Shown here piece after piece: positions 388-33,196 of a DNA stretch of 35,651 nt (position 1 is the stretch's first letter; every line of letters begins with the position of its first letter). The notes under the pieces were generated by a model that had not been told where the DNA came from, searched no databases, and saw nothing but the letters and a program-made list of their open reading frames with translations. The position numbers and the translations under genes were made by a program. Origin of the DNA: a virus. The stretch spans positions 1-35,651 of the IMG/VR virus record IMGVR_UViG_3300010413_000095, one strand, 5' to 3'.

Positions 388-3024
388 TTATCCTTCAAGG
401 GCGCTGGTCACTGTTGATACAGCTACCCCTAGGGCGTCTGCAATTTCAGATGGCGTGTAGCCTGTTGCTGCCATAGTGCGGGCCCTAGTCATCTTAGTTG
501 GGGTCATTACTGTCCTTTTACGAGGTAGGGCTCTTTCTTTTAGCTTAGCGGTATCGGTATTAGCAAGGATGTTTCGTAGTCGGGTGGGGGATACGGCGCC
601 TGCTTGAATTGCTAACCACTCCCGGTCTGTTATCTTTATGGAGGGCTTCTTGGCACCGTATCTTGTTCGCGATTCCTCTAAAGCTTGAGCCTTGATCTTT
701 TTAAGCTGGTCATCTGTTAGCTGGGGGTTGTCCCTCTTCTTAGCCTTGATGATCTTGTTTGCTGCAATCTGTGCCTTTCTTTCTTTAGGGGCGTTTCTTT
801 CAGCATCTACCAGCTTCTTCTTTAAAGCACGTACCTCTGGGTCAAAAGTTTTAGCAGCAGAGGGCGAGTATGGAATGTCCTTTGTAGATAGCGTGGCTTT
901 CCTTGCCTTGTTTGCTAATGCCTTTAAACTATTAGAATGATCAGCATACAAACTCTCCATCTTTGTACCAGATGACAACTTGTATGCATCATCAACTTCT
1001 GCTAACTTATAGGACTTCTCTGTTCTTTTAACTATCTTACCTTTAGAATCAACATAGGTCTCACCAGTCTCTTCATAAATCTTTTTACCTGTCTTGGGAT
1101 CTATCTTATAGTTTTGTTTCCTAACAGGTACTCTTACTGTAGACTTAGCACGTGAGATCAATGTTGTTGCGCCAGAGACAGGCGATCCTTGATACTTTTC
1201 TTTTAGCTGACCTATACCATTATCTATAGCTGATTGCCTATAGTTAAGACTATGCTTTTCGGCATCAATGATTACCATTGAGTGTCTAACAGCGCGAGCT
1301 ATCTCATCTGGCGAGGCACCTCTAATAGTCATGTCGGTTATTAGGTTCGATACTTTACCCATCTCCATTTGTTTTGCATGGGGACTTATCGTTTTCATAC
1401 CAGGATAGCCTGGGTATGCAGCCTTAGTATCAAAGTCTTTTAATCCATCTAATGCTTTTGATGTTCTTATACGACCAGTGTTATTAGGTATAACTAATAC
1501 AGTATCACCATCAAAGTCAGCACCAGATAGAATGTTAGCTACTTTAGGATTAATACCAACTGCATCTTTAGCAGCACCGATTAATCCTTTAGCTTCTGCA
1601 TTCTTGTTGTTTACAGTTAGTGTGGGTATTTCAAACGTTCCACCATGGGGGTGTCTGATCAATACTACTGTTTCTCCATTACGAAAATTAGGAGCATAAA
1701 CTTCATTATCTTTAATTGAATTGAAGGGTAGCAATACTTGATTAGCTTGTCTTGGTAATGCAGCCGCTTTCAAATGAACCGATGCAGAATCAGCTTCATC
1801 AGCATAAGCATGCAATAAAGCTTTCTTTATTGTTGGATTTGTCAAAGACATAATCTCATCAAGTTCTTCTTGTTTAAGTTTTAATGCTAAACCAAGTTGT
1901 TGCTTTGCAAGACCAGTTGATTGTTTAGAAAGTATCTGAGAAGAAAGGGTTCTTGACCAATCAGCCCAAGCACCTTCCTCTCCAGCGCCTGGCTTAGACC
2001 CAACTAAATTTAATGCTGATAATTGTTCTTTTCCGTTAGCATCAATATAGTGCTTCTGCCTAAGCGTAGACCCAAAAGGATTATCTGGATCATCAGACAT
2101 TTCTTTATAAACTTCGTTTACTGGCGTACCTCTTTTTTTAGTGGTGTTATATACAATATCATAGCCTGCAGGAATGTCATTAGAATACATAGACATTCCC
2201 TTCATGTAATATTTTCCGTCAACGCCAACTCGAACTTGAGCATAACTAGCATCGCCCATGTCCAAATCTTCTACACCTCTTCGAAGTTCTATAACACCAT
2301 CTTTATTAGAGCCACCTTCTTCTCCATAACGAATATAAACTCTATTTCCGTCAACACTACGAATTGGCTCAAGTCCTAAGAAGGTACGTCCACCATCTTC
2401 GGAATATTCATCAATCAATGAGATTTTATCTCTATTTCTTGATAATTCACCAAATGTAGTACCTGGAGGACATAAAACCTTTACGGTTGTAAGTTTGCCA
2501 GTTCCTAATTGTGGAACTTTTAGTAAATATTCTTCATAGCCTTGTTCTCTTAGCATTGCTGCGGCTGTTAATAATTTAGTTCTTGAAACACCAAGGTGAT
2601 GCTCAACGCCAACACCTATATCGATATACTTTTTACTATCAACCGCTTCTTTAAGAACATCGGCTGTAGCAGCTACAGAATTAGCTTTTTCTTGTAAAGA
2701 AGGATCTAAAAGGGAACGAACGGAAGATTCATTAATCCCCATTCGTTTCCCTATAGCCACATTAGAATATCCCTTTTCTTTAAGTCTATAAGCTAATGCT
2801 GCATCAGCAGCACGTTTTTCGGCATTAGCAATAGATCTTAGCTGTCGCATCTCTCTAGTATTCATGCCCATACCAGCAGCGATTTCAGTTTGAGATAGAC
2901 CTTTAGCTTTCAGTTCATTGTAAACACTTAGAAAATCGCCACCACTTTGATACGGATCTTTACCAGATCCCCAAGGATATCTACCTGAGCGTCGTTTTAT
3001 ACCATAGTGCTTTATTGTTGCCAT
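388..3024 (-). CDS. RNA polymerase-like double-psi beta-barrel protein with several HTH segments
   Basis: The product is 878 residues; its ATG has GAGGAG about 8 bases upstream. Residues 502-507 read ADFDGD inside SGADFDGDTVLVIP, the metal-binding loop of RNA polymerase beta-prime barrels (D503, D505, D507). The upstream segment 450-473, with R457-H-P459, resembles the beta-prime strand that carries R-P before this loop. A candidate lysine-bearing first barrel lies at about 265-302 (YMKGMS, then NTTKKRGTP). Helix-turn-helix-like segments occur at about 41-66, 83-106 and 850-876, with weaker ones near 141-165 and 801-822. The N-terminus has KRRSGRYPWGSG, a motif I know from this phage family, which is usually annotated as hypothetical or HTH protein. 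Single-chain relatives in other phages are YonO and the crAss-like gp66. By inference it is a phage RNA polymerase or a derived transcription factor. It overlaps the nuclease gene upstream by 13 bases. Confidence 0.7.
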   Translation of the reverse strand: MATIKHYGIKRRSGRYPWGSGKDPYQSGGDFLSVYNELKAKGLSQTEIAAGMGMNTREMRQLRSIANAEKRAADAALAYRLKEKGYSNVAIGKRMGINESSVRSLLDPSLQEKANSVAATADVLKEAVDSKKYIDIGVGVEHHLGVSRTKLLTAAAMLREQGYEEYLLKVPQLGTGKLTTVKVLCPPGTTFGELSRNRDKISLIDEYSEDGGRTFLGLEPIRSVDGNRVYIRYGEEGGSNKDGVIELRRGVEDLDMGDASYAQVRVGVDGKYYMKGMSMYSNDIPAGYDIVYNTTKKRGTPVNEVYKEMSDDPDNPFGSTLRQKHYIDANGKEQLSALNLVGSKPGAGEEGAWADWSRTLSSQILSKQSTGLAKQQLGLALKLKQEELDEIMSLTNPTIKKALLHAYADEADSASVHLKAAALPRQANQVLLPFNSIKDNEVYAPNFRNGETVVLIRHPHGGTFEIPTLTVNNKNAEAKGLIGAAKDAVGINPKVANILSGADFDGDTVLVIPNNTGRIRTSKALDGLKDFDTKAAYPGYPGMKTISPHAKQMEMGKVSNLITDMTIRGASPDEIARAVRHSMVIIDAEKHSLNYRQSAIDNGIGQLKEKYQGSPVSGATTLISRAKSTVRVPVRKQNYKIDPKTGKKIYEETGETYVDSKGKIVKRTEKSYKLAEVDDAYKLSSGTKMESLYADHSNSLKALANKARKATLSTKDIPYSPSAAKTFDPEVRALKKKLVDAERNAPKERKAQIAANKIIKAKKRDNPQLTDDQLKKIKAQALEESRTRYGAKKPSIKITDREWLAIQAGAVSPTRLRNILANTDTAKLKERALPRKRTVMTPTKMTRARTMAATGYTPSEIADALGVAVSTVTSALEG

Positions 3025-3584
3025 GGGTTATACTCCTCGGATTTGAATTCCTCTATCTTTTTGTCAAAGAATATAATCTTCTCCATGATGCGACGAATCG
3101 CTATGTGTTCTGGTTCGTGTACTATAATTTTACTAGATTGATAGATTCGCAACTCAATGTCTATATTCTTAGGAAGATGATCATACTCTAGACAAAATAA
3201 GGCAGTGTAAACTTCGAGCTGATCCATAGAAACTCTGGACAACCCTGTCTTTAAATCGTGAATGCGTAGCAAGTTGTTTCTAAAACTTATAGCGTCAGCA
3301 GTCCCGAATGCATTATATGAATAGAATAAAATTTGCTCTGGAGCCATACGATACCCAATAGCATCATTAACAAACTGATTTAATGGATTTTTTAGCTTAG
3401 GCAACTTAATTCCTAATAAGATAGCATCTTTAGCAAACTCATGAAGAGCTGTGCCTCGAAATTGAGCTTGCGATTTCGCATAGGCATTCCTAAGCTTCTC
3501 TTCGTCATAGTTTAACCAATGATAATTAGAAGCAGATAAGAAAGCGTGGCGATCGATAAGTTCGTAGTGTGGATTAAATTTCAT
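3012..3584 (-). CDS. PD-(D/E)XK nuclease, Cas4/RecB-like
   Basis: The product is 190 residues. I start it at the ATG at 3584, whose ATGA overlaps the stop of the VRR-NUC gene and which has GGAG 12 bases upstream. A GTG at 3602 has no binding site. Visible motifs are RGTALHEF (H48), GTAD (D97), HDLKTG (D110, K112) and QLEVY (Q122, Y126), the standard order for RecB/Cas4-type nucleases. It probably acts on DNA ends during replication or recombination, like the DUF2800-type nucleases found with DUF2815 genes in other phages. It is shorter than typical DUF2800 proteins and lacks an obvious Cys cluster, so an iron-sulphur site is unlikely. Confidence 0.8.
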   Translation of the reverse strand: MKFNPHYELIDRHAFLSASNYHWLNYDEEKLRNAYAKSQAQFRGTALHEFAKDAILLGIKLPKLKNPLNQFVNDAIGYRMAPEQILFYSYNAFGTADAISFRNNLLRIHDLKTGLSRVSMDQLEVYTALFCLEYDHLPKNIDIELRIYQSSKIIVHEPEHIAIRRIMEKIIFFDKKIEEFKSEEYNPWQQ

Positions 3585-3889
3585 TTTGGATTCATACTCC
3601 ACATGTGGGCAATAGATAATTCTTCTAATACGTCATCCAAATTACTAGGATAAACGAATCTCGAATATGACATAAGATTTAGTCGTTGTACCCAATACTC
3701 TTGATTGGGTTGACGTGCAGAGTTACGAGCTCTTTTAACTTCTAATGCTGCCCAGAACGTATCTTGTAAAAGTAAAAGATCTGGAAATCCCTGAATATAG
3801 TTAGGATCTGTTTTAATTACTACAGCTCCAGGAAATTCAGCTTCCAATTCTTCTATTAATCTGGCCTGAAACTTACTTTCTAATGCCAT
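3581..3889 (-). CDS. VRR-NUC domain nuclease
   Basis: The product is 102 residues, the usual length for phage VRR-NUC proteins. Residues 34-52 carry the family signature: GFPDLLLL (D37) followed by ALEVKR (E50, K52), with an upstream glutamine and glutamate in the first helix (E4, Q8). Family members are structure-specific DNA endonucleases related to Holliday-junction resolvases. In phages they commonly sit beside an SNF2-type helicase, as here. The ATG is preceded by AAGG about 10 bases upstream, directly after a terminator-like hairpin, so its expression may depend on the promoter-like element at 3940-3965. It is coupled to the next nuclease gene through ATGA. Confidence 0.85.
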   Translation of the reverse strand: MALESKFQARLIEELEAEFPGAVVIKTDPNYIQGFPDLLLLQDTFWAALEVKRARNSARQPNQEYWVQRLNLMSYSRFVYPSNLDDVLEELSIAHMWSMNPK

Positions 3890-3902
3890 ATTTTTTTTCC
3901 TT

Positions 3903-3941
3903 AAAAATAGAAGGAAAATGTAAAAATCATTCTCCTTCTAT
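3903..3941 (-). terminator. Rho-independent terminator after the SNF2-like helicase gene
   Basis: Arms 3928-3941 and 3907-3920 form a 14-bp stem with one G-U pair and a 7-base loop (3921-3927). On the minus strand the stem is followed by TTTTT and AAGG. The stem begins inside the last codons of the helicase gene and overlaps the -10-like part of the promoter element at 3940-3965. A transcript started there would lack the outer part of the 5' arm, which might let it pass. Confidence 0.75.
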
Positions 3942-5132
3942 TATAGTCTTTGTATTTGCTGCGAGTGAAAATTTATACTCGTTAAAGTTTTTTTTGTTTG
4001 CAATTGCTTTTTTTATCGCTAAATCAATCCAAGATGTTGACACTATTCTATAATAATATAGATTAGCAAAAGGCGTATTCATTCTGTCTATACGACCAGC
4101 TGCTTGTGTCATTATTCGATATGAATAATTCAACGAATAAAATACAATTACGTTAGTCTCAATGCAATTCCAACCTTCACTACCTGCCAAGTACTGTACT
4201 AAATATAACCATTGTTCACCTTTTGGTAATGGTTCATGTTTATGTCCATTCCATTCGGCTATAGCTACATCCTCTTTAAACTTGCGCAGTATGTCCAGTT
4301 CATAATTGAAATTATAAAAGACTATTAGTTTTCTATGTTTCTCTAATAAATCTTTAACTATGTCAAAGCGTGAAGGATCACTATTAACTACACGCCTAAC
4401 AGCAACAAAGAGTTCGCTTACTTGTTTTATTGGTTCATCTGTAAATGGATTCCATCTTTTCTGGGTTACAAGTTTTAATTTTTCTTTATCGTATTCTGCA
4501 AAGAGATTGTTATATACGCTAGTAGTTGGTTTCTTATATTTCATAGTAACAAGAATCTCGCGCTTTAATCTAGCTAATCGACTTTCTTCTATATAACGAT
4601 CAATTTTTGGAAAACGAACAAAAGCGTTATATACAACATGACGTCGTATAAACTCTGTTCTGTTTTTATAGAATCCATTAGCGATGAATACTGGAATATA
4701 GTCCATCCATGTATCACCAGGCGTCGCACTTAACAATATCCAATTGTTCTGTTTGGTAATCTTTAAGAAAGATTTTACCCACGCTCCAGAACCTACAACT
4801 CTTTGTTCATCAAATATGAAGAATGCATCTTTGACATCGATGTACTTTTTAATGTTATTCCAGGAATCAACTTTAACAAGAATATTATTTATGCTCGCAT
4901 CTCTATTAGTCGATAACGCAAATCTTGCACACTCGCGTTCCCAGTCAAGTGAATCACGTTTCTTAGCTGTTGTGATTATATACAAGTCTTTACCAAACTC
5001 GTGTTGCGTATAGTAATATATCGACGTTATAGATTTACCAGAACCGACCCCGCCACAAAGGACGGAGCCGGTTTTCAACTGGTTTACCGCATCAAGCTGA
5101 TAAGGGAAGAGTTTACTCTTCGAACTCGTCAT
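3927..5132 (-). CDS. SNF2/DEAD-like superfamily 2 helicase
   Basis: The product is 401 residues from the ATG at 5132. A longer reading would need a TTG at 5189 and adds a hydrophobic leader that does not belong to the fold. Superfamily 2 motifs are clear: Walker A GGVGSGKS (27-34), DEQR (108-111, in place of DEAH), SATP (135-138) and motif VI QAAGRIDR (343-350). It is an ATP-dependent DNA translocase or helicase expected to serve replication or recombination together with the VRR-NUC protein next to it, a pairing known in many phages. It overlaps the end of the DUF2815 gene by 20 bases, so translation is probably coupled. A terminator and a promoter-like element overlap its 3' end. Confidence 0.85.
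   Translation of the reverse strand: MTSSKSKLFPYQLDAVNQLKTGSVLCGGVGSGKSITSIYYYTQHEFGKDLYIITTAKKRDSLDWERECARFALSTNRDASINNILVKVDSWNNIKKYIDVKDAFFIFDEQRVVGSGAWVKSFLKITKQNNWILLSATPGDTWMDYIPVFIANGFYKNRTEFIRRHVVYNAFVRFPKIDRYIEESRLARLKREILVTMKYKKPTTSVYNNLFAEYDKEKLKLVTQKRWNPFTDEPIKQVSELFVAVRRVVNSDPSRFDIVKDLLEKHRKLIVFYNFNYELDILRKFKEDVAIAEWNGHKHEPLPKGEQWLYLVQYLAGSEGWNCIETNVIVFYSLNYSYRIMTQAAGRIDRMNTPFANLYYYRIVSTSWIDLAIKKAIANKKNFNEYKFSLAANTKTIIEGE
3940..3965 (-). promoter_or_regulatory. Promoter-like element (copy 1), upstream of VRR-NUC
   Basis: On the minus strand it reads CTCGC, then 15 bases, then TATAAT. The spacer contains TAC at the position shared with the other copies. It lies in the last codons of the helicase gene and points at the VRR-NUC gene (ATG at 3889). 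It belongs to the family with copies at 15404, 16910, 17250 and 17603. A start site would fall near 3933, inside the 5' arm of the terminator. Confidence 0.55.
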
Positions 5133-11755: not shown

Positions 11756-12694
11756 TCAAATGAGGTCAAATATAACTCCATCAACATTGAAGTCTAATAG
11801 GAGAGAGTCAACCGAAGGTCCAGTTTCCCATTCACCGTACGGAGCATTATAGGGATTGTAAATATCAAAGTCTATAAAGTCATCTCCGTGGTCTTTTACC
11901 CAGCCGACAATTGCGCCTTCTTTTGTTCGATTAACTCCGAGCATGTCGTATACTTCATTTAAGAAGACATGTCCAGTCATCTGAAGTTTTTGGTTTGCGT
12001 AATTTTGCTGGGATTTCAGAAAGAATTCATTGAAACTGTTATCGGTTCTCCATTGAGGAGAGTCACTATCGAAGAATACGGCATATTGAGAGGGCATTCC
12101 AAGAATTCGATCATCCTCTGTATCAGTTAATTCTCCAGGAAGATCAATCTGTTCTTCGTCCCATTTTATTGGTTTCTTCTTAGAATCCAGAACCTGCATG
12201 CCACCTTCACGACGTTTCATGTACCTGAAATATGTGTCGACTTCTTCTCCAAGCTCTTCGCGTACTCGACCGCGGTATCGCTTGAACGCTTCGTCGACAG
12301 CCTTGTACATTCCCACCAGAGCGGCATTTCGTCTACTGAGAATGCGATTCGACCCGACTAGCATACCAATCCCAGCAGTCATTAAGATTACACTGGGCGC
12401 ATACAGTCGAGCAAGTCCAAACCCGTATTCCACTCCAAGTACTACTTTTGCTTTTTTTACTTCTGATGGCGTATTCTCTGGATTATCAGGTTCATTAGCA
12501 GCGATAAGATCTACCGCTTTCATCATTGTCTTCGCCTCTTTAACCAGGTCAGGCGCTTTCAATGTTGCACGACATGCCAATACTGTTCCACCTAACACGC
12601 TTGCAATTCCACCAGCTAATAGAATTTCTGGTGAGTGTTTGTGGAATAATAGCTTAGCTCGTGCTGTTTTTACACTTAACATTTCGGTGTTCAT
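11756..12694 (-). CDS. DUF6353-like membrane protein, paralogue 1
   Basis: The product is 312 residues, with AAGGAG before the ATG. It has two membrane spans (about 24-42 and 97-114), then the family hallmark SRRNAAL (120-126) followed by a long charged helix (MYKAVDEAFKRYRGRVREELGEE) and a C-terminal part ending in FLNEVYDMLGV and IVGW. The gene at 15874-16617 shares this order and wording (SKRNAAL, PLNEFYDMLGL, NTGW), so the two are paralogues. This copy is longer, with an insertion around 60-90 and an extended C-terminus. The family is widespread in siphophages and of unknown function. A membrane location is inferred. Confidence 0.8.
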   Translation of the reverse strand: MNTEMLSVKTARAKLLFHKHSPEILLAGGIASVLGGTVLACRATLKAPDLVKEAKTMMKAVDLIAANEPDNPENTPSEVKKAKVVLGVEYGFGLARLYAPSVILMTAGIGMLVGSNRILSRRNAALVGMYKAVDEAFKRYRGRVREELGEEVDTYFRYMKRREGGMQVLDSKKKPIKWDEEQIDLPGELTDTEDDRILGMPSQYAVFFDSDSPQWRTDNSFNEFFLKSQQNYANQKLQMTGHVFLNEVYDMLGVNRTKEGAIVGWVKDHGDDFIDFDIYNPYNAPYGEWETGPSVDSLLLDFNVDGVIFDLI

Positions 12695-15081: not shown

Positions 15082-15369
15082 TCAATTTTCAAGTAGATTT
15101 ACCTCAATGTCATCGTTCCATAAGTTGTTATCAATTGCGTTATGAACAACGGTTGCGGCTGCACCAGCTACCACTGCGATTCCGATGGTTACTCCAACCA
15201 ACTTTACGGCTTGAATAGCTTTCTCTTTTCGAGTCCACTCTTCATTCCATTCAGTTATGCTGGGGATAACCTTCGTGACGCCGCGGTTTAGCATGCTGCT
15301 AACTGCGAATGTTATTGCAACATCGCTTGATGCCAATAATACGGTTTTTCCAATAGATTTGGGGGTCAT
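15082..15369 (-). CDS. Small two-span membrane protein
   Basis: The product is 95 residues from the ATG at 15369, which has AAGGAG 7 bases upstream; the frame is open further up without a binding site. Two hydrophobic segments (about 6-25 and 56-78, the latter Val/Ala/Gly-rich) flank a charged loop with EWNEEWTRKEKA. The C-terminus is acidic. It has its own promoter-like element (15404-15429) and its own terminator (15040-15074), so it can be expressed independently. No family recognised. Confidence 0.7.
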   Translation of the reverse strand: MTPKSIGKTVLLASSDVAITFAVSSMLNRGVTKVIPSITEWNEEWTRKEKAIQAVKLVGVTIGIAVVAGAAATVVHNAIDNNLWNDDIEVNLLEN

Positions 15370-15403
15370 TTTAGTTCTCCTTAAATATGAATTTTTGGGT
15401 TTC

Positions 15404-15429
15404 ATTATAGGCTATGTAATTGCTGCGAG
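15404..15429 (-). promoter_or_regulatory. Promoter-like element (copy 2)
   Basis: CTCGC, 15 bases with TAC in the shared position, then TATAAT followed by GAAAC. It overlaps the last codons of the gene at 15405-15560 and drives toward the ATG at 15369. The segment after TATAAT (GAAACC, then an A-run) is also shared with copy 4. Confidence 0.65.
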
Positions 15430-15873: not shown

Positions 15874-16617
15874 TTATAGGAATCTTGGTTCTATTGAATA
15901 GCCAAGAACAATACAGGGTTCACCATCAGCAGCAATCTTTGCGCTGAATTTAATGTCCAACTTGCCTTTCTGAACATCCCACCCAGTATTGCGGCCCATC
16001 TCGGTGCCTTCTAGTCCCAGCATATCGTAGAACTCGTTCAAAGGAACGAACATATCGTTGAATAACAATTCATTAAAATCGTTCTGAACACGCCGTACAG
16101 TCTCTACATCAGATCTGAAATATCGTCCTGACAATGCGTCAAAGAACAGATGTTCACCTTTGCTTGTGATGATTATGTCATGTACTGGATTCTCATCTAG
16201 TTTATCTTGAGCAATCTCGTCTCGCACCTTGGCTTCTTTTTTTTCGCCAAACATTTCGATAACTTTATCTTGGTATTCTTTAAGTGCGGAGTCTGCCACA
16301 GAATATAAACTCATCAGAGCAGCGTTTCGTTTAGAACTTATATGATTCGATCCAACAATAGCAGCAATTGTAATGATGCCCGAAGCAGCGGTCGGTAAAT
16401 ATAGTTTCCAGACCAGCTCTAGTTTTTCTCTATTTGTGAACTTTCGTTTTGCATAGGATTCTTCGTCATCAATAACTTCTACTGCCAGGATCGTTCCTTT
16501 AATCGCAAGTGCCGTCGTAGATATAACACCAGTTACACCTATTCCGGTTAGTATTGTCGGAGAGTTTTTGTTTATTGACTCTCCGGTCGTACGTACAAGC
16601 CTTTCAATTTTGTTCAT
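15874..16617 (-). CDS. DUF6353-like membrane protein, paralogue 2
   Basis: The product is 247 residues from the ATG at 16617 (GAGGAGG upstream). It has two spans (22-45 and 73-91), then SKRNAAL (95-101), a charged helix (SLYSVADSALKEYQDKVIEMFGEKKE), VRDEIAQ, LFFDALSGRYF and a C-terminal PLNEFYDMLGL---NTGW block. This matches the typical DUF6353 length and order better than the 312-residue paralogue at 11756-12694. The function is unknown; conservation across siphophages suggests a general role at the membrane. It overlaps the 52-residue gene upstream by 14 bases. Confidence 0.85.
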   Translation of the reverse strand: MNKIERLVRTTGESINKNSPTILTGIGVTGVISTTALAIKGTILAVEVIDDEESYAKRKFTNREKLELVWKLYLPTAASGIITIAAIVGSNHISSKRNAALMSLYSVADSALKEYQDKVIEMFGEKKEAKVRDEIAQDKLDENPVHDIIITSKGEHLFFDALSGRYFRSDVETVRRVQNDFNELLFNDMFVPLNEFYDMLGLEGTEMGRNTGWDVQKGKLDIKFSAKIAADGEPCIVLGYSIEPRFL

Positions 16618-16762
16618 CGTCCTCCTCGTATGCATCTGGATGTAAATAATAGTCTGCAAGACGACATATAATGAGCAAATATATAACTATGCCCAGTAGT
16701 CCTGCGCCGATTAGATATAACAAACAGGTTATGGTTGCTAGCTCCTTTATTGCCTCCCACAT
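16604..16762 (-). CDS. Small single-span membrane protein
   Basis: The product is 52 residues from the ATG at 16762; GAAAGGAGG lies about 12 bases upstream, slightly far. One long span (about 8-33) is followed by a CRLADYYLHPDAYEEDD tail. It overlaps the DUF6353-like gene by 14 bases, which supports co-translation. It is the first gene after promoter-like copy 3. Confidence 0.6.
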   Translation of the reverse strand: MWEAIKELATITCLLYLIGAGLLGIVIYLLIICRLADYYLHPDAYEEDDEQN

Positions 16763-16829: not shown

Positions 16830-16910
16830 AAAACAAAAATAGAAGAATACGTCCATGCCTCTAATCTCGGGGATAGCGTTCTTGTTTAACCTCTGTTTAC
16901 GTTTCTTCTA
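16830..16910 (-). ncRNA. Structured leader or short RNA with terminator-like end
   Basis: A transcript from promoter-like copy 3 begins near 16903. Its first bases (arm 16899-16910) can pair with 16840-16852 over about 12 bp with one bulge, enclosing 46 bases. The right arm is followed by TTTTTGTTTTTC. This could be an attenuator in the 5' leader or the end of a short RNA of about 75 bases. No open reading frame with a binding site lies inside. A further CCCAAAA/TTTTGGG inverted repeat follows at about 16795-16825. Confidence 0.4.
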
Positions 16911-16935
16911 TTATACAGTGTGTAATTCTCGCGAG
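16910..16935 (-). promoter_or_regulatory. Promoter-like element (copy 3)
   Basis: CTCGC, 15 bases including ATTACA, then TATAAT. It lies in a true intergenic space, directly downstream of the terminator at 16936-16965, so the layout is gene, terminator, promoter. It faces the genes from 16762 downward. Its spacer differs from copy 4 at only two or three positions. Confidence 0.7.
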
Positions 16936-17214: not shown

Positions 17215-17249
17215 TTTAGTTTCTCCTATTTGGGATAGTTTTTGGTTTC

Positions 17250-17275
17250 ATTATACACTGTGTAATTCTCGCGAA
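17250..17275 (-). promoter_or_regulatory. Promoter-like element (copy 4)
   Basis: TTCGC (one change from CTCGC), 15 bases including ATTACA, then TATAAT and GAAACC. It is intergenic, just after the terminator at 17281-17318 and 36 bases upstream of the ATG at 17214. Confidence 0.7.
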
Positions 17276-17588: not shown

Positions 17589-17602
17589 GGCAAACTCCTT
17601 TC

Positions 17603-17628
17603 ATTATAGACTGTGTTTATAATGCGAG
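17603..17628 (-). promoter_or_regulatory. Promoter-like element (copy 5)
   Basis: CTCGC, 15 bases with a weaker spacer match, then TATAAT and GAAAGGAG. It fills the gap between the holin stop (17630) and the ATG at 17588. The ribosome binding site follows TATAAT so closely that a transcript starting here would have an extremely short leader, so this copy is the least certain promoter of the intergenic ones. Confidence 0.5.
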
Positions 17629-28917: not shown

Positions 28918-30687
28918 TTAGGAAGTCAGTTGTTCGAGAACCACTGCGCTCTTGGGGACCGTCAGGGCACCAGAGATGCGGGTTTCGATCAGGTACTTCT
29001 GCTGGTTGTAATCAATGTCGAAGTCATCAAACATGTTGATTTCTCCGCCCTTGTCTGCACCAATGGTGTAGTCCTGCAGGTTAACGATAATTGCGCGCAA
29101 AGCGTACTCAGTCGCAACTGGGGTGTGAACCAAACCTTCCATGATAGGAACTTCGACGATGTTGGAAACGCGCAGTTCGGCTGCCAACTCGGAAAGAGTC
29201 TTGTACATGCGATAGCCCTGGGTGTCGCGCAGAAGCAACATGGCAGTTACCAAACTTGGAGCCATGAAACAGGTTGGCGATCCAGAACCACGATACTCGA
29301 CGCGAGCGCCGATAATATCATCGATCAGGTCTTCGGTTGTGTCAGCAAATGCCGCAATTTCCTGGTGAATATAAACAGAGTTATCATCCGTCCAAATTGG
29401 GCGAATATTGGTCTCACTGATTTTGTCAGTGGCAACACCAGAACGACCATCACCAACGAGGACCGCCCGAGCGAGTTCCTCGTCCAGCATGACACGCATT
29501 TCGCGCTTCAGCCAAGCTACAACATTGAAATCTGTGATGTCGATGATGTCATCGCGATCCAGTTTCTGTTTCTTGTAGACGGTTGTTGGGGTGGTGATCC
29601 GGCGAAGTACGGGGAACACTTCCTCGACTTTCAGGTCGCCAGTCACATAACCCTTGGCGCGTGCTTCGTCTGCGGTGATATCAGCATGCAGGGATTTGAT
29701 GCGAGAGAACGGGGAATGACGAGTGCCATTCATAACAGCAGAGACCCACTCCATACGACGTGCGATGAAGGTAGGTTCATTGGTTACATTCTTTGCATCG
29801 GGGAACAGGAGTTCCAGGTTGGCGCGATCACTACCAATACCATAGGTACCAGCGTGAATAAGTTCCTGAGTTTCTGGGGGTAAAGTAGCGACATGAGCTT
29901 CCCAGCCCTTACGCAGGGAACCCGCCTGGCGCCCTTTTTCCATGATGGCATTGAAATCAGCATGGCTCAGGACTGGACCGCTTTCGGTTGCGCGGTTGTC
30001 AAACACATTCTTTTTCATGATTTGAATATCTCCTTTAGGGGATGAGGTTTCTTCTTCTTCTTCGGCGCTTGCTTTGATCTCGCCGGTTTCTAAAAGTTGT
30101 CCGATGATAGCATAAACTGCGTTCTTTTGCTTTTCATCGAGAGTTTCGAAGACGTCGCCAACAGTTTCCTCTTCTTCGTCGGCATGTTCAAGATCTTCGT
30201 CTTCATGCTGCAGTTCAGCAACTTCCAGTTCAATACCAGTGTAGATCACGGCTTCTTCTTCCGATTCAATGACCTCACCATCAGCATGTTGTACTGCAAC
30301 GTAGTCAATTAATGCGCCAGGATTTGCGCCTGAAAGAACCAAGCTAACTTCGCGGATAACACCGTGCATAACTTGCTTGGATTTTTCAATCAATTGATTT
30401 GCATAAATCGATAAGAACGAAACGTCTTTATGTTTAACTAATTCCTTCGCCTCAACCGCAGCGGGTGATTCGTTGAAATATGCATAAGCATAAACGCCGT
30501 CTTCACGATTTTCGAGGACTGCATGACCGAGTACATTGGCAGGCTCATCGTGTAGATGTTGCCACACCAAGGGAACAGTCACACCGTCTTGGTGCTTAAA
30601 TGCATCACGCATAATAACACGCCCATCGGTGCATTTAAGATCGTTTTTGGTAGCATAACCACCAAAATCGAAATTAGGGTTTGGCAT
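28918..30687 (-). CDS. Fused prohead protease and major capsid protein
   Basis: The product is 589 residues. Residues 1-130 are an HK97-type prohead protease: VPLVWQHLHDEPANVLGHAVL gives the catalytic His (H44), FLSIYANQL the probable Ser (S93), and VLSGANPGALID is the end motif. Residues 138-215 form a very acidic linker (EEEE runs), probably the scaffold (delta) part. Residues about 224-589 are an HK97-fold major capsid protein (RMEWVSAVMNGTRHSPFSRIKSLHADIT, MLDEELARAVLVGDGR, TVPKSAVVLEQL). Fusions of protease and capsid occur in other siphophages. An internal start at M224 has AAAGGAG upstream and may give free capsid protein. The gene start is an ATG with GGGAG, overlapping the portal gene by 14 bases. 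Confidence 0.92.
   Translation of the reverse strand: MPNPNFDFGGYATKNDLKCTDGRVIMRDAFKHQDGVTVPLVWQHLHDEPANVLGHAVLENREDGVYAYAYFNESPAAVEAKELVKHKDVSFLSIYANQLIEKSKQVMHGVIREVSLVLSGANPGALIDYVAVQHADGEVIESEEEAVIYTGIELEVAELQHEDEDLEHADEEEETVGDVFETLDEKQKNAVYAIIGQLLETGEIKASAEEEEETSSPKGDIQIMKKNVFDNRATESGPVLSHADFNAIMEKGRQAGSLRKGWEAHVATLPPETQELIHAGTYGIGSDRANLELLFPDAKNVTNEPTFIARRMEWVSAVMNGTRHSPFSRIKSLHADITADEARAKGYVTGDLKVEEVFPVLRRITTPTTVYKKQKLDRDDIIDITDFNVVAWLKREMRVMLDEELARAVLVGDGRSGVATDKISETNIRPIWTDDNSVYIHQEIAAFADTTEDLIDDIIGARVEYRGSGSPTCFMAPSLVTAMLLLRDTQGYRMYKTLSELAAELRVSNIVEVPIMEGLVHTPVATEYALRAIIVNLQDYTIGADKGGEINMFDDFDIDYNQQKYLIETRISGALTVPKSAVVLEQLTS
30016..30036 (-). promoter_or_regulatory. Internal ribosome binding site and start for capsid-only product
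   Basis: Within the protease-capsid gene, AAAGGAG lies 11 bases before an in-frame ATG at 30018 (residue 224, MKKNVFDNR). The site is at the junction between the acidic linker and the capsid domain, exactly where a separate capsid start would be useful. The product would be 366 residues, or 40 kDa. Confidence 0.45.
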
Positions 30688-31945: not shown

Positions 31946-33196
31946 TTAAATAAAGGCTACAGGCTTATAAGAGTCCCAATCGAATTGACCTTTTGTGCTA
32001 CGCACAAGATCTTCAAATCGATCACGTCCCTTAAAGCTGCTACCTCTAAATATAGCAGTGTCTCCATGAATCTGAATGAATTCTGGGAAACCAACAAAGC
32101 CACTGGCATCGTATTGCACAATCATAGCGCCTTTTTGCCAATTCCTATCTTTTGTTGACCCTGGAACTCGTCCATCTAAGTGGCATAAACAACCAGGACT
32201 AGCCGCCCAAATATGACGATCTTCATACATACCAAGAACACGTTCTGATACAATCTCTTGTCTATGAATATGACCAAAGATTTGACTTACAGTCGCGTTT
32301 TGGATTATTGTACTAGCTGTTGCACCTGGTCGAACTCTTGCCACTGAGCCATGAACGACTTTTAAGTGTTCATTTAACCACCATTCACCATCTGGATACT
32401 CTCCGACATAGTGAACGCCCATTCTTGATAAACCAAGTAGATTGTCAACCTCCATCATTGAGTCTAAATATAACTGATCTGCTGGGCGGATCATGTAAGC
32501 TTGTCTCATGTTCTTAATCATGTAGTTTTCTAGGCGATCATCATGATTGCCTATCATGGCTACTTGTTCTGCGAACGGAAAACTAGCTACAAAGTTGCCA
32601 ACATACCACGCAGCTTCTATTAAAGCGGCTTGCGTTGTCATTTGGAACTCTGGTCGAAGCACGTAATGTGTTGACCATTCTGAAAGATCTAAAATATCGC
32701 CAGCCCAAACGATTGAGTCTGGTTTTACTTCTAATGCTACTTGATGAACGGCATCTATTGCAATTCTATCATGTAGAGGAACCGCGCCAGGCTTATTAAC
32801 TTGCTTGAGGAATCCAAATTGCGGATCTGGTAATACTAGAGCCGTTTTCGTTTTTGTTCCTCTAGGTTTTCTAGCAGTTGTTTTGCGTATGTTGACAATT
32901 ACGTTGTGAATTGGTACCTTTGATGGAACTAATTCATGTCTAGAGAGCCACGCCTTAGCTTGATAAAGCCTTTTTGTATTAATCTCCCCAAAACTTTTAA
33001 CGTGTCCTGTCATGACGCCATTAACAAACTCTATGTCTTTGTCCTCAACTTTAACACCAATCGGCCAAGAATTTGGAAGGAATCTATCCACTTTCCAAAC
33101 GGTTAAATCGACCTTAAATAAGGCTAAAAGTTCGTCCAAAGACATAGGTTCGTCACCTGGTGGAGCGATTATGGTTCTATGGTTTTTAGAAGTCAT
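31946..33196 (-). CDS. Calcineurin-like metallophosphoesterase
   Basis: The product is 416 residues; the ATG overlaps the preceding TAA. The N-terminal 110 residues are of unknown fold and include a basic stretch (RKTTARKPRGTKTK). The catalytic domain then shows DPQ (D124, where a DxH is usual, with Gln replacing His), GDILD (166-170), GNHD (216-219), HG (282-283) and GHIH (308-311). This set defines two-metal phosphoesterases acting on phosphodiesters, including nucleic acids. Its location between virion genes and next to the portal is notable: it may be a packaged or assembly-related nuclease or phosphatase. The substrate is unknown. Confidence 0.85.
   Translation of the reverse strand: MTSKNHRTIIAPPGDEPMSLDELLALFKVDLTVWKVDRFLPNSWPIGVKVEDKDIEFVNGVMTGHVKSFGEINTKRLYQAKAWLSRHELVPSKVPIHNVIVNIRKTTARKPRGTKTKTALVLPDPQFGFLKQVNKPGAVPLHDRIAIDAVHQVALEVKPDSIVWAGDILDLSEWSTHYVLRPEFQMTTQAALIEAAWYVGNFVASFPFAEQVAMIGNHDDRLENYMIKNMRQAYMIRPADQLYLDSMMEVDNLLGLSRMGVHYVGEYPDGEWWLNEHLKVVHGSVARVRPGATASTIIQNATVSQIFGHIHRQEIVSERVLGMYEDRHIWAASPGCLCHLDGRVPGSTKDRNWQKGAMIVQYDASGFVGFPEFIQIHGDTAIFRGSSFKGRDRFEDLVRSTKGQFDWDSYKPVAFI

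Follow-up and report, generated by a model that had tools for sequence, protein, structure and literature searches.

The window, by which we mean the whole stretch of 35,651 bases analyzed here, is a linear virus record whose ends are probably incomplete. Near its first base it carries, on the minus strand, an ATG-initiated open reading frame at 388-3024 encoding a protein of 878 aa, which confirms the gene proposed at this position by an earlier sequence-only reading. That reading had also placed the gene beside replication nucleases, and the operon indeed begins with a gene for a VRR-type endonuclease (3581-3889; PHROG 93) and also includes an exonuclease gene (3012-3602; PHROG 3953) and, past the 878-aa gene, a partner gene of 113 aa and unknown function (35-376; PHROG 4303), all on the minus strand. 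Elsewhere on this strand, two membrane proteins (11756-12694 and 15874-16659) appear paralogue-like, sharing a GSN.I.S.RNAAL..Y..D.A motif recognized by eye, and a metallo-phosphoesterase gene (31946-33196) is situated between the portal and upstream structural genes.

The 878-aa protein belongs to a family that was already annotated as a polymerase before the present analysis. It matches the PHROG 4291 profile over its full length (residues 3-877, 1230 bits, E=0), and the database name of this group, "RNA-dependent RNA polymerase", is also used in many RefSeq records. Searches with tblastn recovered homologues in 250 of 50,697 phage records, 249 of them covering 80% or more of the query and all below 60% identity, in phages of genera that include Arthrobacter, Gordonia, Streptomyces, Lactococcus, Rhodococcus, Curtobacterium, Microbacterium, Faecalibacterium and Bifidobacterium. 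Among 2.9 million viral contigs those bearing this RNA polymerase (RNAP) number at least in the hundreds. In the phage records the homologues are variously labeled as HTH protein, RNA-dependent RNA polymerase or hypothetical; the first reading named the HTH and hypothetical labels but missed the polymerase name. One contig (L091), whose RNAP is ~71% identical to that of the window, is binned to the archaeon Candidatus Bathyarchaeum, reflecting either mis-binning or an archaeal virus.

When the PDB was searched by sequence, the protein by itself and a 9-row profile gave either no match or just HTH, designed-repeat and chance matches; hence, a fold search was required. An AlphaFold2 model generated with 107 homologues (pLDDT 85.7, pTM 0.75) was compared with the PDB using Foldseek. 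The best match was QDE-1 (7y7r; E 5.5e-9 over 871 columns), with a low global TM-score (0.34) that counts against the assignment but is to be expected if the two proteins have only the core in common, followed at E <1e-4 by maize RDR2, Thermus phage P23-45 gp64 (E 3.7e-6), P74 gp62 (Thermus phage P74-26) and Arabidopsis RDR2. All 6 matches with E<=0.001 are two-barrel RNA polymerases, as is the remainder of the 50 matches listed, among which those other than the RDR, QDE-1 and Thermus phage enzymes are multisubunit RNAPs (cellular beta-prime). This combination of structure prediction and fold search had been named beforehand as a check, and among the significant matches the predicted whole-protein model resembles two-barrel polymerases only. 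Among 119 long ORFs of the phages P23-45 and SPbeta examined by profile comparison, the P23-45 polymerases gp96 and gp64 took the first two ranks (E 5e-4 and 1.2e-3), aligned at the aspartate triad, with the third-ranked ORF at E 0.026. The similarity to YonO in this type of comparison (hhalign E 0.042, over an unrelated 19-residue stretch) was indistinguishable from background. The Pfam RdRP profile PF05183 scores 14.4 bits on the window protein, below its gathering cut-off of 23.8, and is weakly matched in 8 of 9 family members (best 7e-5). We assign the family to the two-barrel polymerases with good confidence, this being a well-supported prediction.

The stretch SGADFDGDTVLVIP (residues 500-513) includes D503, D505 and D507, the aspartates of the predicted catalytic loop D503-F-D505-G-D507 (1504-1518; this and all other segments of the protein lie on the minus strand). 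The sequence-only reading had singled it out as a beta-prime-type loop, and the three aspartates are never lost: together with K275 they are invariant in 170 of 170 aligned homologues (K296 in 169), a count somewhat biased for the triad as the loci were partly collected via GADFDGD or SNLITDM patterns. The triad is likewise found in 7 of 7 homologues chosen by plain tblastn without any motif pattern. Given its invariance across the 170 aligned homologues, the triad is not a chance occurrence. A candidate lysine-bearing barrel had been placed ~210-240 residues ahead of the loop, and the conserved K275 and K296, 228 and 207 residues N-terminal of the triad, are plausibly spaced for this role. 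In the model they fall into a predicted barrel A (DPBB-1; residues ~261-341, 2002-2244), whose approximate boundaries we draw from the model strands, while the triad lies in a predicted barrel B (DPBB-2; residues ~427-513, 1486-1746), which aligns by profile with the barrels of P23-45 gp96 and gp64. Past barrel B a long model helix with near-invariant residues (548-567, ..MGKVSNLITDM.., 1324-1383) is a candidate for the bridge helix.

At both ends the catalytic region is flanked by HTH units. The Pfam profiles HTH_23, Sigma70_r4_2 and HTH_3 exceed their cut-offs on the window protein, and HTH families are present in all 9 diverse members scanned. The model shows helical units at residues ~31-57, ~79-107 and ~842-877. 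The two N-terminal ones (residues 31-107, 2704-2934) correspond to matches to HTH_3, Sigma70_r4 and other HTH profiles, and the C-terminal one (394-501) to HTH_23 and Sigma70_r4_2. A helix-helix-strand-strand unit at residues ~137-185 (2470-2616) is likely to be winged-HTH-like. By Pfam matches and model units taken together, the original estimate of "three to five" such segments was a fair one.

Intergenic regions show recurrent TTACACAnTGTATAAT elements, the full form of which is a promoter-like pattern of 29 bp, TCGCnnnnATTACAnnnnnTATAATRRAA. In the window, where such a family had been noticed before, it occurs at five sites with <=3 mismatches on the gene strand (minus) versus 0.025 expected from shuffles: at 3936-3964 ahead of the nuclease-RNAP operon (1 mismatch), at 15400-15428, 16906-16934 and 17246-17274 (0 mismatches each), and at 17599-17627 (3 mismatches), where a Shine-Dalgarno sequence abuts the TATAAT. 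The first of these is directly followed by a hairpin (3890-3964 in the window; 73 loci), with its 5' arm starting right after the TATAAT and, in many loci, a T-run behind it; such a structure may form at the 5' end of the mRNA, act as an attenuator or terminate the upstream operon. At 15082-15405 (minus strand) the called ATG lies inside the TATAATG of a promoter, and the ATG after AAGGAG, ~40 bases downstream, is the likelier start.

Across the RNAP loci, the pattern with <=3 mismatches is found at 143 sites on the RNAP-coding strand (126 distinct sites, as some loci overlap) versus 1 on the opposite strand, the reversed-pattern control giving 2 and 1; with <=2 mismatches the counts are 66 and 0, against 0 and 0 in the control. 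A version with the spacing TCGC-6-TTACA displayed no strand bias (52 versus 61) and was discarded; the signal comes with the 5-base spacing. In 12 named phages with the RNAP a relaxed pattern yielded 76 sites on the RNAP strand, none on the opposite strand and none in the control, 3 of the 12 having no site at this threshold. In ReqiPepy6, 14 sites cluster in the small-gene region past the tail genes, with a further one 0.95 kb upstream of the RNAP; a site ~0.92 kb upstream of the RNAP start is present in 52 of 159 loci when up to 3 mismatches are allowed and in 73 loci when up to 4 are. The commonest form of the -10 block is TATAAT. Clostridial prophages mostly have TTTTAT or TATTAT as the final block (35 sites versus 0 on the other strand), and the geometry of the element is constant in phages of Rhodococcus, Arthrobacter, Streptomyces, Lactococcus and Clostridia, spanning high-GC Actinobacteria and low-GC Firmicutes.

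The earlier suspicion that this promoter family belongs to the RNAP is strongly supported by their co-occurrence. An exact motif scan of the 2.9 million viral contigs found 43 with the element, of which 26 encode the RNAP (in one case the match is weak and at the contig end); against a background of at least hundreds of contigs with the RNAP in this set, the enrichment is very large. Among motif contigs of >=38 kb, 22 of 24 encode the RNAP, and the two that do not carry a protease-capsid gene of the window type and are probably incomplete relatives. Ten whole host genomes (37 Mb) contain 18 sites, 17 of them within ~27 kb of the RNAP prophage, and no copy of the control pattern, whereas a set of 150 genomes from a single host family contains just one site, which is inside the RNAP prophage. 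An origin as a general host promoter was accordingly rejected: being nearly confined in hosts to the surroundings of the RNAP prophage, the element is a phage element. Moreover, 7 changes of the -10 variant suffice on the RNAP tree, versus at least 22 in 200 shuffles. Co-occurrence and co-divergence could partly reflect hitch-hiking through the shared phage ancestry of RNAP and promoter, and we regard the element as probably the RNAP's own promoter. A parallel is seen for the partner gene, which tblastn detects in 250 phage records with genus counts equal to those of the RNAP, the two being compared at the genus level. We used tblastn counts here since a strict sequence pattern recovers the partner in 53 of 132 loci. 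The partner protein displays the motif LTTxDNPxxPFTQxDxW...GYNTxxYLAR, and is modeled as a small alpha/beta fold (pLDDT 84) that yielded no match in the PDB; it may serve as a specificity factor or an additional subunit.

The extreme N-terminus of the RNAP, IKHYGIKRRSGRYPWGSG (residues 4-21, 2962-3015), is disordered in the model (pLDDT <50), yet its H and G are kept in 98% of the 170 homologues. Its general form, [DE]..LxHYG[TIV]..R.SGRYPWGSG, begins with the same Lx-H-Y-G as a tag found on other proteins of these phages and has a different continuation, the comparison covering a short segment in which KWG is missing at the corresponding place in the RNAP. The tag, LxH[HY]G[IV]xG[MQ][KR]WG, occurs in 151 other ORFs of the RNAP loci and in no shuffled protein; all 151 are on the RNAP strand and 132 have the tag <=40 residues from their start. 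Phage Pepy6 has eight KWG-tagged proteins around TerL and the portal, and gp07 of phage 1706, annotated as a structural protein, has two tag copies. A tag query matched 196 of 50,697 phage records (Gordonia 55, Streptomyces 53, Rhodococcus 4), nearly the RNAP counts, and of nine records sampled from these, eight carry the RNAP, the ninth being a match without the tag. The KWG tag is absent from the window and from its closest relatives, which leaves the RNAP, with its tag-like segment, as the sole carrier there. In the record EU081845.1 the RNAP of phage 1706, orf75, was deposited as "structural protein", a label repeated in the ReqiPepy6 record. We put the odds that the RNAP is packaged in the virion somewhat above even. 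At many loci (e.g. L172 10681-19932; L171 2501-3886) an LxH[HY]GxxGxKWGxRR tag sits on otherwise unrelated proteins near TerL and portal, some of which resemble ADP-ribosyltransferase or 2H-phosphoesterase effectors by eye and are candidates for injection with the phage DNA. Separately, the protease-capsid fusions (28918-30687, minus strand, in the window; 19 relatives) contain 169 [ILVMTA]xH[ASGND] sites versus 46 in shuffled sequences. These are possible cleavage sites of the maturation protease, and the tag likewise begins with LxH.

As a whole, these features are best explained, in our judgment with fair assurance, by an RNAP that serves a phage promoter read by its HTH domains, probably free of sigma factor and probably packed in the virion. 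The enzyme would be a single-chain two-barrel DNA-dependent RNAP of a siphophage lineage typified by Lactococcus phage 1706 and ReqiPepy6. Its HTH domains would recognize the 29-bp element, probably without a host sigma factor, and its barrels would provide the Asp triad and the lysines for RNA synthesis. The promoters precede the early small-gene region and the operon of nucleases, RNAP and partner, and the RNAP, probably packed via its N-terminal tag and injected, would transcribe from its own promoters at an early stage of infection. In its most complete version, namely a virion-delivered, self-contained system widespread among siphophages and prophages with a sigma-free, HTH-read, three-block promoter, an obligate partner and a tag shared with injected proteins, the proposal is tentative, and we hold it at somewhat less than even confidence.

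An alternative for the promoter is that the element serves host sigma-A with a phage activator bound at TCGC/TTACA, the two-barrel RNAP being used elsewhere, for late genes or replication primers. The main -10 form, TATAAT, equals the sigma-70 consensus, the TCGC lies near the position expected for a -35 box or an activator, and common ancestry could tie the element to the RNAP. Yet no TTGACA -35 is present at the promoter sites scored, and sigma-70 needs an A at the second position of the -10 block (-11 A), which the clostridial TTTTAT lacks; the clostridial forms TTTTAT and TATTAT are poor for sigma-A. Further, in 26 of 68 scored sites the Shine-Dalgarno begins 0-6 nt after the TATAAT, and a start at the sigma-70 position would remove it from the transcript. 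The same geometry is also retained across phages of Rhodococcus, Arthrobacter, Streptomyces, Lactococcus and Clostridia. We therefore consider this alternative unlikely. The other alternative of some weight is about delivery alone and partly coincides with the polymerase claim: the RNAP might be a non-virion enzyme made early by the host RNAP for middle or late genes, with a tag that has nothing to do with packaging and a carried-over label "structural protein" for orf75. We hold this to be less likely than virion delivery. In its favor, the RNAP gene resides in a replication-nuclease operon outside the head module and its tag is unlike the KWG form. Against it, the RNAP operon itself carries the promoter, tagged proteins are almost restricted to phages with the RNAP, and 1706 orf75 was deposited as a structural protein.

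The existing annotation suggests instead an RNA-dependent RNA polymerase with phage or host RNA as template, drawing on the PHROG 4291 and RefSeq names, the weak PF05183 matches and the rank of QDE-1 as best PDB match. However, this name is based on distant homology, the QDE-1 structure 7y7r itself has a DNA template, and DNA-reading HTHs with linked promoters suit a DNA template, as does the precedent of YonO, which is DNA-dependent (PMC5467207); such an activity is accordingly quite improbable. Even less probable is a two-barrel relic that has lost catalysis and serves as a structural protein or, by binding DNA, as a repressor. The many HTHs would suit such a role and catalysis is a prediction from sequence and model, but triad and lysines remain invariant (K296 in all but one) across homologues of 42-92% identity.

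If the preferred reading of an HTH-guided, promoter-specific RNAP holds, sigma-free promoter recognition by such a compact enzyme would offer a simple model of how two-barrel RNAPs find their start sites, and would explain the early-gene expression of these phages in very different hosts. As a matched pair, RNAP and promoter might serve for orthogonal expression in Actinobacteria and Clostridia and, if the tag is a packaging signal, the injected proteins of such phages would become predictable. Carriers of the RNAP number ~250 among named phages and several hundred or more among environmental and prophage contigs, where it is mostly labeled HTH or hypothetical. In the literature searched, with most subscription papers outside its scope, we found no description of the promoter, partner or tag of the PHROG 4291 RNAP, nor the KWGVRR and promoter strings, and neither a promoter nor an RNA polymerase comes up in a paper on 46 Arthrobacter phages. 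New here, as far as this literature goes, are the 29-bp promoter, the co-occurring small gene and the tag likeness, single-chain two-barrel phage RNAPs being already known from YonO, gp66 and P23-45.

Among known systems, the window protein is a full-length member of PHROG 4291, whose annotation is silent on promoter, partner, tag and DNA-dependence. QDE-1 and RDR2 are the best structural match across the whole chain, at 12-14% identity, but are eukaryotic enzymes of RNA silencing without phage promoters. We know of no HTH arms on QDE-1 or RDR2, nor on gp66 of the crAss-like phage phi14:2. That gp66, which is of the same single-chain two-barrel type and delivered with the virion according to PMC10770324, is absent among the 50 PDB matches listed. 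YonO of SPbeta (PMC5467207) is likewise a single-chain phage RNAP with an Asp triad, of ~100 kDa and DNA-dependent; its promoter sequence is unknown, and it has no detectable profile similarity to the window protein. The sections of PMC10770324 and PMC5467207 consulted describe no HTH arms on single-chain RNAPs. A close parallel is P23-45, reported in PMC10770324 as a siphophage with two single-chain two-barrel RNAPs, the virion gp96 and the non-virion gp64. Like the window protein, both are single-chain two-barrel enzymes of a siphophage with a DFDGD/DYDGD loop and phage-specific promoters, whereas gp96 is fused to the tape measure, the P23-45 promoters are unlike those of the window, and the two polymerases there stand against the one gene found here.
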